Assembly (NCBI GenBank): GCA_021234155.1
Contig: JAJEKV010000011.1
Location: 5,349,132-5,413,131, forward strand
Reading direction: 5' to 3'
DNA length: 64,000 nt
Origin: Isoetes taiwanensis
Taxonomy: Eukaryota; Streptophyta; Lycopodiopsida; Isoetales; Isoetaceae
Every line of letters starts with the position of its first letter. Positions within the stretch are counted from its first letter, which is position 1. The notes under the pieces are model-generated. The model was not told the DNA's origin, searched no databases, and was given only the letters and a program-made list of their open reading frames with translations. Below are positions 10,323-60,027 of the stretch, piece after piece. The translations under genes and the position numbers were made by a program.

Positions 10323-10451
10323 TCTCTCTCTCTCTCTCTCTCTCTCTCTCTCTCTCTCTCTCTCTCTCTCTCTCTCTCTCTCTCTCTCTCTCTCTCTCTC
10401 TCTCTCTCTCTCTCTCTCTCTCTCTCTCTCTCTCTCTCTCTCTCTCTCTCT
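10323..10451 (+). repeat. (TC)n microsatellite, 5' side of LINE1
   Basis: A pure dinucleotide tract of 129 bp. In units B and C the same position has an uninterrupted tract that runs straight into the R module. Here the LINE1 5' end follows directly at 10452. Confidence 0.97.
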
Positions 10452-10490
10452 AAGAAACAAGAACTAGATCCTAATGATCCATTCTTTCAT

Positions 10491-11819
10491 TTGGAACAAG
10501 ATCTGCTAACATTTTCCATGCAAGGAGAGGTTATGTTAGTGGGAGAGTTTAATGGGAGAACTAGCCATTTACAAGCTAGAATTCTTAAGGATGAAGGAGA
10601 ACCCCTTTGGTTTGAGGAAGTGAATGACTCTGAGATGGATGAGCTTGGTTGGAAAAGAACATCGAAAGATGGTGGTGCTGTCACTGCAATGGGTAGACAC
10701 CTCCTTACCTTGTGTTCCAGCTTTGATTTACGCATATGTAATGGCACTCGTAGGTTCCCTGGGACAGATATACACACTTGTAGAGGCAGAAGTATTGTAG
10801 ATTATCTTATTTGCTCTGACAGAATTGTGCACGTGCTAAAATATTTTCAAATCTTGGATGGGAGTGCTGAATCAGACCATAATCCGCTTATATTTGCTTT
10901 AAAGGCTCAGCCTATTTGCATAAAAAGTCCGCCAAAACAGGAGGTAAAGATCATGCTGAATCATAAAAAGATGGATAAGTATAAAAAAATGATGGAGGCA
11001 GTCATCTTACAGGAACATGACAGTGCAGAAATGATGAGCAGATCAATTACTAGTACTCTGCGGCAGGTGGCTAGTGACTGTTTTTTGTCAAACAGAGCAC
11101 GTCATGGTCTACCATGTAATTCTTGGTATGACAAAGAATGTAAAGAGGCACGTAGAGAATATCTCAATGCCATCGCTTCTGAAAAGAAAAGTAAATTACT
11201 GCACTACAGAAAGACAACCAGAAGGAAGAAGAGACTCTATATTCGCCTCAGACAAGAAACACTGTTAAAGGAATGGGTGCAAGATCCACGCTTATTCTGG
11301 AAAAAGATGAAAACTAAAAAGAATGTTGATGACATCTCTAGTTATTTGCCTGGTGATTCTATATTTGGTCACATTAAACAACTATATTTTAAAGAGAATG
11401 TCGAAAGTACGGTACACCATTTGGAAACTAAGGTAACAGATTTTTTCTCTCAAGCAGATGTTCAATCCGGCATTGCTCGCCTTGCCAATGGCAAGGCTGC
11501 TGATACACTTGGGCTCGTTGCGGAAATGATTAAATGGGCAGGTGATACTGTGGTTGGATACATCACTCATATGCTTAATAAGGCAATCCAACAAGGATTT
11601 CCGGCTGATTGGCAATGCAACCGGGCTGTCCCAATACATAAAGGTGGAGACAAGGAGCAGGTGAGTAATTATCGTACCATTTTAGTGAGCAATCTGTGGG
11701 CTAAGCTCTTTGCTACTATATTGGAAAGCAAATTAAGTGCATGGGCAGAGGATAATGGTGCTAGGGCAGATGGGCAAAGGGTTTTAGAGTACAACGCTCT
11801 ACCATTGACCAACTTGTAA
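10491..11819 (+). pseudogene. LINE1 ORF2, endonuclease C-terminal half and RT start
   Basis: The 442-residue frame opens within the APE-type endonuclease. VGEFNGR corresponds to the VGDFNAR block, SIVDYLI follows, and ESDHNPL near residue 127 keeps the catalytic Asp-His pair. A basic linker with paired RRKKR follows, then the RT entry segments NGKAADTLGL, NRAVPIHKGG and NYRTILVSNLWAKLFATILE. The frame is lost at about 11775, where the LINE3 homologue reads GQTGFRP. The loss is of bases at a CAG position. The first methionine is internal to the domain because the element is 5'-truncated, so this is not a true start. Confidence 0.88.
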
Positions 11820-12684
11820 CAACCCGAAGTACTTATGGAAAGCGCGGAGGTAAGAAAAACCTCTTTTCGGCATTCGTAGATTTTAAAACAGACTTTTGAC
11901 ACCGCCCTCGTAGAGATAAGTTGTGGGATAGAATGGAGGCATTGAATGTGCCCGTGGAACTCATGAATGCTGTTAAAGGCTTGTATGAAAGTGTGCTGGT
12001 TGAACTTTCTCATCCATGGGAATCAAATGAGAAGATTGTCGGTAATATTGGAGTTAAACGAGGTTGCCCACTATCCCCAACTCTATTTGGCATTTTATTG
12101 ACAAGTTGGAGGATTGGATTGTATATCAAGGAGGTGGGGAGCTCCTTTGCTTGCCTATGTAATTGCCTTATTACTATATGACGATGTGGTTCTTATTGCC
12201 GGACAAAGGAAGCTATGTCTAAAACATCCGAGATCCTTTCTCAATTTCAGTGCTAGTACTAAGATGATCAGAATACTAGCAAAACCAAAGTGATGGTCGT
12301 TGGCACGCTGGAAAAACATCAATTTTTGTATAGAGAACATTCTCTTGAAACAAGAGCATCTTTCAAATATCTTGGGATCATCTTAAGCAATGACTACACG
12401 TGTGGAACCAATGCATTGAACAAAGAAGAGATAATGCCTTGAAAGCTTTATGTGCAATGCAAAGACAAAGCAAGCAAAGCGGACTTATGGAATTGGTCTT
12501 AAAAAAAAAAAAAATGTTGTATAAGATGCTTGTACAAACCGTAATCCTTTATGGGTGTGAGGTATGGGGCCCCAAATTACCACCCAATCTTTGGAAGTCC
12601 ATTGAGAAGGTGCAAAAAAGGTTTCTCCATTTGAACCGGGGTGAAAATTACAAACGCCTTTATGAAATGATGTGCCGAAGGTAG
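11820..12684 (+). pseudogene. LINE1 ORF2, reverse transcriptase core (frameshifted)
   Basis: Pieces in different frames carry RT motifs in order: FSAFVDF near 11870, RDKLWDRMEALNVPVEL, VKRGCPLSPTLFG near 12055-12100, LLLYDDVVLIA near 12170, FKYLGIILSNDY near 12365 and MLVQTVILYGCEVWGPKLP near 12525. The active-site box, YADD in the relatives, reads YDD here. The missing alanine corresponds to loss of a GCA in a CAG context. A one-base loss in a T run near 12095 also shifts the frame. Confidence 0.85.
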
Positions 12685-58600: not shown

Positions 58601-58937
58601 AACGGCAATATGCATTTTAACATCACCTCTTTGCATTTCCAACCAGATATACTGGTTATGCGGATCTGTTTTTAGTTCCTTCAGCATTGAGATATACTCA
58701 TTTCTGACATAGCACGCAATCCCCCCATTCCCCTTAGGCCCATTTCCAAATCGAGCATTCCATAGTGAAGAGAATAATTGAAAAACCATTCAAGTCCGGC
58801 AAGCCACATTCCTCATGTTCATGTGTTTCCAGAAAACAAATTGCATCTAAATCATCTAAAATTGGAGTCATACCTTGAGCTTTGGCATCGTTCAGCTTGT
58901 TTATGTTCCATACTCCAAACCTGAAGGCCTCGAGTCC
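55628..58937 (-). pseudogene. LINE3 ORF2: endonuclease, reverse transcriptase, Cys/His motif
   Basis: The frame continues without an ATG from the ORF1 stop: FGVWNINKLNDAKAQG and CFLETHEH (endonuclease start, catalytic Asn and Glu), a one-base break near 58756, then GGIACYVRN, VCYFAP, LVGDFNART, SVVDYLI and ESDRNPL. The family's catalytic His is Arg here. A TAG at 58032-58034 is an in-frame nonsense. RT follows with a break near 57405: FVDYTKAFDTVPRDKLW, GVKQGCPLSPTLFG and LLLYADDVVLIA (active site, about 56830). After compensating shifts near 56520 come LVQTVVLYGCEVWAP and CEMCAGDHIEDEYHTLLCC, and a Ser/Asp-rich tail ends at 55628. RT and endonuclease would carry out target-primed integration. 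Four or more lesions make this copy inactive as read. Confidence 0.92.
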
Positions 58938-59900
58938 CTATTGATCGATGACCACCTTCCCCTTTCTCCAGTAAACCTTTTTGTTCTGATCTTTCGCTTC
59001 TTTGAATTTTCTTAGCTCTTCTTTTCTGGCTAAGAACTGCTCCTTAGTTAAATCCTCATTAATCCATATGTTTTGATCCTTAAGGATAGTCTTTTTCTTC
59101 AGCACGTTCATTCTGTCCTCCTTCTCACGAAACTTGATCACTATATGTCTGTTCCAACCTGCTTTCTTACCAACTCTGAAAGCATCTACTATCCCTGGCA
59201 TATCAATTTGCATCTTATCTCTGATAAGATTATCTACTAGCAGCTTCACATTCTCGTTATCTTCCTCTGGCAGGCCAACCAATCTAAGATTTAATGCTCT
59301 ATTTCTTCTATCCTGTGCTTCCATGAAATCTGAAAGTTTCTGCTGTAACTCTGTAATTGCAGAGTTCTCCTCTCCAACATCAGCCCCATTCTCTCTTATT
59401 TCCATAGTGGATTGCTCCCTGATATTACCTTTTAACATATCCAACTCATCCCTTATTTTTTGCATTGAGTGAGCATTTTCCTGTTTCAGCTTCTCCATCT
59501 CCCTTTGGAAATCTCCTGCCAACGAATTCTTCACCTCTCTGATCATTTCTTGCATGACATTTCCCATGAATTCACTCAGAAACTCCTTCTTGAAATCGTT
59601 CAACATTGTTTTCATGCTTTGGGTCATCAAACCTAGTATTTCCGGTGCAGATATTCCAGAATCCCTGTGTGCAGATGCCGTAGATGAGGAGCTGCTGGAG
59701 TCATGATCAGAGCCATTCTCAGACTCCGTTCCTTCCTCTACTGCCGAAATTGCTACAGTAGCCTTTTCGATGCCTTTTCCTTTTTCTGGTTTTTTGGAAG
59801 AGCCAGATTTAGGCTTAGGATTTGCCCTGTCTGCAGAAACGACATCCCCCTTGGATGTGCTAGTCTTTGTTTTCTGTGCCGTAGTAGCCGTCTGCGCCAT
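58938..59900 (-). CDS. LINE3 ORF1 RNA-binding protein
   Basis: An intact 320-codon frame starting MAQTATTAQKTKTS. Residues 1-80 are Lys/Ser-rich and disordered. Residues ~85-200 show coiled-coil spacing (EILGLMTQSMKTMLNDF, ITELQQKLSDF). Residues ~203-270 resemble the L1 ORF1p RRM (ALNLRLVGLPEEDNENV, RHIVIKFREKEDRMNVLKKK). Residues ~271-320 resemble its C-terminal domain (NIWINEDLTKEQFLARKEEL, KVYWRKGKVVID). The architecture indicates an L1-like trimeric RNA chaperone that coats the LINE transcript. The stop is UAG and the same frame continues into ORF2 with no gap. The start is eight bases from the GA tract. Confidence 0.9.
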   Translation of the reverse strand: MAQTATTAQKTKTSTSKGDVVSADRANPKPKSGSSKKPEKGKGIEKATVAISAVEEGTESENGSDHDSSSSSSTASAHRDSGISAPEILGLMTQSMKTMLNDFKKEFLSEFMGNVMQEMIREVKNSLAGDFQREMEKLKQENAHSMQKIRDELDMLKGNIREQSTMEIRENGADVGEENSAITELQQKLSDFMEAQDRRNRALNLRLVGLPEEDNENVKLLVDNLIRDKMQIDMPGIVDAFRVGKKAGWNRHIVIKFREKEDRMNVLKKKTILKDQNIWINEDLTKEQFLARKEELRKFKEAKDQNKKVYWRKGKVVIDQ

Positions 59901-59908
59901 TGGGAGGG

Positions 59909-60027
59909 AGAGAGAGAGAGAGAGAGAGAGAGAGAAAGAGAGAGAGAGAGAGAGAGAGAGAGAGAGAGAGAGAGAGAGAGAGAGAGAGAGAGAGAGAGAG
60001 AGAGAGAGAGAGAGAGAGAGAGAGAGA
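59909..60027. repeat. (GA)n tract between LINE3 5' end and LINE4 3' end
   Basis: A 119-bp GA tract with one GAAAG interruption. Two LINEs in the same orientation share it as 5' and 3' boundary. Confidence 0.97.

Follow-up and report, generated by a model that had tools for sequence, protein, structure and literature searches.

Long interspersed nuclear elements (LINEs) that target microsatellites are known from animals, in the Tx1 clade, of which Kibi is reportedly (TC)n-specific and Koshi (TTC)n-specific, as Kojima and Fujiwara are said to have described in 2004. Here we analyse a stretch of 64,000 nt from the quillwort Isoetes taiwanensis (contig JAJEKV010000011.1, positions 5349132–5413131; "the window" denotes this whole stretch), in which four LINEs, LINE1 to LINE4, lie against (CT)n tracts. 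We suggest that these APE-endonuclease LINEs very probably insert preferentially into pre-existing (CT)n, with CT on the sense strand of the element. They resemble Kibi and Koshi in the type of endonuclease and in the pyrimidine microsatellite target (a comparison of these features and not of reverse transcriptase (RT) kinship), and differ from them in being hosted by a land plant instead of animals and in having tails of (ATTTC)n or (ACTTC)n. A dinucleotide microsatellite is also the target of Togen, a set of (TG)n-specific LINEs of fish which, according to the available portion of PMC4640811, is related to NeSL; that clade has a restriction-like endonuclease, unlike the Isoetes LINEs with their APE endonuclease.

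Among flowering plants, almost all L1 families have a poly(A) terminus, RTE elements terminate in (TTG)n or (TTGATG)n, and one plant L1 lineage carries a conserved 3' hairpin shared with short interspersed nuclear elements (SINEs), as given in the accessible part of PMC3747384, where no target specificity of plant LINEs is mentioned. The Isoetes elements are, like these, plant LINEs, and a 3' hairpin is a feature in common with that one L1 lineage; their tails are different. A plant mobile element with a microsatellite target is MuTAnT, a group of Mutator-like elements of Medicago targeting TA microsatellites (PMC4486113, available in part), but these are DNA transposons and use another repeat. 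No plant LINE targeting a microsatellite was found in the portion of hits covered among open-licence PMC titles and beginnings of abstracts. Microsatellite targeting by LINEs, known from animals, would here be encountered in a quillwort.

Perfect CT/GA tracts were recorded from a length of at least 12 bp in the window and of at least 16 bp in a 260-kb stretch obtained by adding flanks of 100 kb per side. All nine tracts in the window lie at the ends of LINEs, of a mini-element or of a Harbinger-type element (the latter two discussed below), or at homologous empty sites. Six named LINE ends (both ends of LINE1 and LINE3, the 5' end of LINE2 and the 3' end of LINE4) are separated from a tract by 0–5 nt, and 1.8% of window positions are located within 15 bp of one. 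At each of these ends the sense strand of the LINE is the CT strand, as the preliminary description of the locus had it. LINE1 (10452–13501, + strand), with a decayed RT and a (CATTT)n tail, is preceded by a tract of 129 bp (10323–10451, +) within an 8.5-kb host repeat and followed by one of 20 bp (13502–13521, +), after which the host repeat resumes. The other three elements lie on the - strand. The 5' side of LINE2 (49575–50553) adjoins a tract at 50554–50714 (CT in the sense of the LINE, -), which is also the left flank of the Harbinger-type element. LINE3 (55552–59903) encodes ORF1 (open reading frame 1), a weakly recognisable APE endonuclease and RT, with the frame of ORF2 broken and a tail of (ACTTC)n; it lies between sense-CT tracts at its 3' end (55519–55551, -) and at its 5' end (59904–60027, -), the second of which is common to the 3' end of LINE4. 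LINE4 (60028–64000, tail (ATTTC)n) continues beyond the window edge to a 5' end at ~64097, inside a 23-bp GA tract, which makes an eighth LINE end; its coding body is broken by ~1.1 kb (about 61976–63126) containing a 197-bp tandem repeat. The differing 5' break points described earlier agree with the translations: LINE1 is truncated in the endonuclease region, LINE2 after the RT, and LINE3 reaches the ATG of ORF1. Among the 12 tracts in the 260-kb stretch three are outside the window, and two of these three sit at the LINE4 5' end.

The whole assembly (1,658,258,908 bases, 1110 contigs) was then considered, with the LINE copies found in it labelled L followed by a three-digit number. A 973-bp query from the 3' end of LINE4 yielded 43 matches, from 40 of 1214 candidates scored. 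Junctions were taken from the 36 copies besides LINE4 that reach query position 957 or beyond; five matches stop short, and a 95-nt fragment inside L046, which reaches the query end, was not counted separately. With a 1001-bp query from the 3' end of LINE3 there were 41 matches, from 40 of 458 candidates scored; 31 copies besides LINE3 extend at least to position 980 and gave junctions, and nine others fall short of it. The longest CT run overlapping the 3' junction served as the score. In the LINE4 family it measured at least 8 nt in 34/36 copies, at least 10 nt in 30/36 and at least 20 nt in 24/36; the respective values for the LINE3 family were 20/31, 18/31 and 11/31. A GA run of at least 6 nt was present at the junction in 0 of the 67 copies of both families, and the background for a 10-nt CT run was 0.32%, from 40,000 positions drawn at random across the 260 kb, these LINEs included. 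As a local control, three of three (CTATT)n tails in the 260-kb stretch, one of them following a LINE RT match at 84609–85562, had no CT run longer than 5 nt within 30 nt. The LINE4 family therefore occupies a single type of site in fixed orientation, and the LINE3 family displays a preference only.

A similar picture is seen at the 5' ends. In the LINE4 family 20 copies were examined (seven read ~4.6 kb upstream, three apparent truncations and ten at the expected full-length position), of which 16 had a determinable end; L066 proved not to be an end, and L119, L121 and L124 yielded none. CT adjoins 14 of the 16. Nine of these copies are full-length (L068, L069, L120, L122, L123, L125, L126, L127 and L128), with a CT tract of at least 70 bp and then the ORF1 start within ~10 nt, the ATG itself being lost in L120, and five (L067, L070, L071, L073 and L074) are truncated at differing points against tracts of 111–147 bp. 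Seven LINE3-family copies truncated inside the query could be read, and three have their 5' ends in long CT (L075, L076, L078) and another, L080, has 9 nt of CT. Six further copies of this family, read at the expected full-length position, gave no confirmed LINE3 end; among them L116 has a 21-bp CT tract ahead of an ATG, without a BLAST match. In L068, L071, L075, L078, L120 and L122 the upstream tract is itself preceded by the 3' end of another LINE in the same orientation (identified by eye from the 3' motif), an arrangement also displayed by LINE3 and LINE4 in the window, where two LINEs are found in one tract. Such tandem same-orientation LINEs in shared tracts mean that the tracts become one-way LINE nests.

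The order of events can be read at the LINE1 locus. An 8.5-kb tandem segmental repeat (2210–31076), with a 19-bp minisatellite and a CT tract at each unit boundary, is represented by copies at 2210–10447, 13845–22113 and 22428–30680, which are ~90–95% alike. LINE1 occupies the CT tract between the first two copies, while the next two junctions carry uninterrupted tracts of 125 bp (21989–22113, +, empty site B/C) and 206 bp (30552–30757, +, empty site C/D) without a LINE. The flanks of these empty sites (left GAGGCATAAAAA(A)GCAA, right CRCGTTATCAAAG) nearly match those of LINE1, and both flanks of the LINE1 tract align to those of the uninterrupted tracts at 21989 and 30552. Since homologous junctions carry uninterrupted CT without a LINE, the tract came first, and at this locus it is older than the LINE insertion. 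The LINE3-family copy L076, on another contig, lies in a tract of the same host repeat, as judged from 40 nt of its left flank. With its filled and empty tracts, the 8.5-kb repeat constitutes a natural target assay.

The idea put forward in the preliminary description, of a LINE lineage integrating into (CT)n, is supported by these data, with a strong preference in the LINE4 family and a clearly looser one in the LINE3 family: copies elsewhere lie in CT, and on one strand, far more often than the ~0.3% of random positions. Two ways in which CT might belong to the element itself were considered. The tract is not built into the 5' end, as truncated copies meet CT at different internal points, and it is not part of the element consensus, as the two empty sites keep it without a LINE and six LINE3-family copies are CT-less at the 3' junction. 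L082, L097, L098 and L112 show that the tail proper to the element is (ACTTC)n, without CT as a part of it; because some LINE3-family copies thus end in their own tail without CT, CT is the target and not the tail. A built-in CT sequence serving as 5' untranslated region (UTR) or as 3' tail is ruled out by the truncated ends, the empty sites and the CT-less LINE3 copies taken together.

Judged by their sequence, the elements are APE-endonuclease LINEs with two predicted ORFs and almost no 5' UTR. ORF1 begins at or right after the tract, and ORF2 follows directly, with an APE endonuclease and an RT (PF00078). The RT domain was recognised as RVT_1 at 1.1e-33 in LINE3 and 2.7e-19 in L071, and its best PDB matches were R2 and L1 ORF2p. 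Upstream of it, the endonuclease matched Exo_endo_phos (PF03372) at 2.1e-13 in L068 and 1.5e-9 in L071, both above the cut-off; for the decayed LINE3 endonuclease Pfam matches were sub-threshold, and a PDB sequence search returned chance-level matches with no endonuclease among them. LINE1 had no Pfam match of its own and is 66% identical to LINE3 in DNA over ~1.3 kb. The copies combine a constant 3' end with 5' truncation, as is characteristic of LINEs, and the poly(A) tail of flowering-plant L1 is replaced here by (ATTTC)n or (ACTTC)n. No RNase H family was detected in the ORF2 pieces scanned, two of them C-terminal and none an intact full-length ORF2. The ORF1 products of LINE3 and L068 are 41% identical; an AlphaFold model of the former, made from a single sequence with no alignment and of low confidence (mean pLDDT 57.5), suggests long helices followed by a mixed C-terminal part, and a PDB sequence search with ORF1 gave chance-level matches only. 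No relatives of the LINE3 RT were confirmed in an IMG/VR search. Common to all four window LINEs is a 3' stem-loop with an inner and an outer stem, followed by GACGTAATA before the tail; fold z-scores ranged from -1.15 to -3.92, and in nine tails the stem pairs in 91.6% of cells.

These observations are best read as target-primed insertion into (CT)n, to which the LINE4 family adheres strongly and LINE3 loosely. The endonuclease would nick the GA strand, and the freed ..GA-3'OH would pair with an RNA tail ending in ..UUC and prime cDNA synthesis; the resulting copy would carry CT on the sense strand. Such a nick-and-pair scheme is consistent with the bias in orientation and with the direct TTTC-TCTC junction. 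The shared 3' stem-loop, followed by GACGTAATA, would recruit the RT, and the remnant of the tract upstream would act as a promoter and as a leader. As the ORF1 ATG is where full-length copies begin, transcripts must initiate either inside the tract or ahead of it, and a promoter/leader role of the tract is an attractive proposal from its position. CT/GA repeats are common in plant promoters and 5' leaders, for which reason a LINE placed directly behind a CT tract could provide a testable model for the transcription of an element without a 5' UTR of its own.

A number of observations weigh against this reading. The preliminary description had placed seven of seven visible LINE ends in CT; six are clear, and the LINE2 3' end is weak, with just an 8-nt GA run and a degenerate purine-rich stretch, and the nearest tract of at least 12 bp being 984 bp away. 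Near the window, a long tract at 79839–79944 has no adjoining LINE match. In the LINE3 family 13/31 3' ends lack a 10-nt CT run: six have no CT at the junction (L082, L097, L098, L104, L108, L112), four have other pyrimidine-rich sequence (L084, L092, L099, L106), L109 has degenerate CT, and L088 and L095 have 8-nt runs. In the LINE4 family, runs are of only 5 nt in L031 and L058 and of 8 or 9 nt in L049, L054, L062 and L063. At the 5' side, L065 and L072 of the LINE4 family end outside CT, as do three LINE3-family copies, L079 and L081 without CT and L077 after CCCTCTCTA. Copies are also not all independent, because the pairs L029/L051 and L042/L045 have 3' flanks in common; L125/L128 derive from the second pair and look like a single duplicated insertion, and flanks are often repeats. 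Covariation was considered as proof of the 3' stem and rejected, since double changes occur in only two pairs, not above shuffles.

The LINE3-family copies outside CT imply that other sites are usable, and this lends some weight to an account without targeting, in which copies elsewhere were lost or CT simply marks open or tolerant chromatin. We regard it as very improbable, given that neither survival nor chromatin would pick a strand, as seen in the 0/67 copies with a GA run of at least 6 nt, and that tracts of at least 16 bp cover merely 1097 bp, or ~0.4%, of the 260 kb; untargeted insertion as such is rejected on the absence of the GA orientation. An origin of the CT in the LINE itself, with the tail or RT slippage seeding the microsatellite, has a precedent in the RTE elements of Lepidoptera, for which microsatellite seeding has been proposed and whose 3' UTRs are regularly composed of simple sequence repeat units, according to the part of PMC2887409 available. 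The tails of the Isoetes LINEs end in TTC, from which slippage could run on into CT, and 34/36 LINE4-family tails do continue into CT for 8 nt or more. The same origin would leave the 5' ends unexplained, which abut CT too, at truncated internal points; empty sites hold tracts of 125 and 206 bp with no LINE, and L082, L097, L098, L104 and L112 have the tail and then no CT. We consider such an origin very improbable.

Tracts longer than 100 bp are hard to assemble, and false LINE-CT junctions might arise from misassembly in a genome for which Nanopore, Illumina and Bionano data were combined (PMC8566536, in the part available). At several junctions the tract is short and gives way to other sequence (20 bp at the LINE1 3' end, 22 bp in L029, 20 bp in L040), and the flanks of LINE1 correspond to the left and right sides of one and the same empty site, which makes this explanation extremely unlikely.

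The tracts are also occupied by other sequences. A SINE-like mini-element is present in two copies, 67 nt at 55452–55518 (-) and 69 nt at 64121–64189 (outside the window), which are 97% identical with the same ends, and both lie between CT tracts in LINE orientation; the tract on the 3' side of the first is at 55357–55451 (CT in sense, -). Its 3' end, ACGTAAAAAATACA, resembles LINE ends, with the LINE-like motif ACGTAA..ACA. The 69-nt copy folds into two hairpins (z -2.6), and the 67-nt copy folds poorly (z -0.4). Two longer repeats, at 40700–40791 and 125400–125487 (the latter outside the window, in window coordinates), end in GTGCGACGTAAAAATATA(CTTC)n and resemble the mini-element at 78% across 50 nt; they may belong to a related family of SINEs that has a different tail.

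The PIF/Harbinger-type element (50715–55356, strand not assigned) is flanked on either side by AG tracts, which lie on the same strand, and contains ORFs for Myb/SANT (51150–52331, +) and DDE_Tnp_4 (53665–54603, -; 9.6e-22). Sequence resembling its end, GGCCACATGC, follows the CT tract at 5/36 LINE4-family and 3/31 LINE3-family 3' ends (by eye: L034, L037, L044, L061, L063, L089, L095 and L096, with mismatches in L037 and L063), and is present in L080 and L125 as well. The element may therefore use CT tracts too. We would entertain only tentatively, as a rather unlikely whole, a joint reading in which a lineage of APE LINEs in a land plant, perhaps outside Tx1/R1, would make three-fold use of (CT)n, as a cut site, as a GA strand that pairs with the tail UUC and primes cDNA, and as an upstream promoter/5' leader, in a niche shared with two other occupants, a ~69-nt SINE that borrows the LINE 3' end and a PIF/Harbinger-type transposon. 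An older Harbinger-like copy is located at 43269–49514, and inside it ~1.8 kb (44137–45970) are extremely pyrimidine-rich, of CCCTTTTCC type, with a GC skew of ~-0.7.

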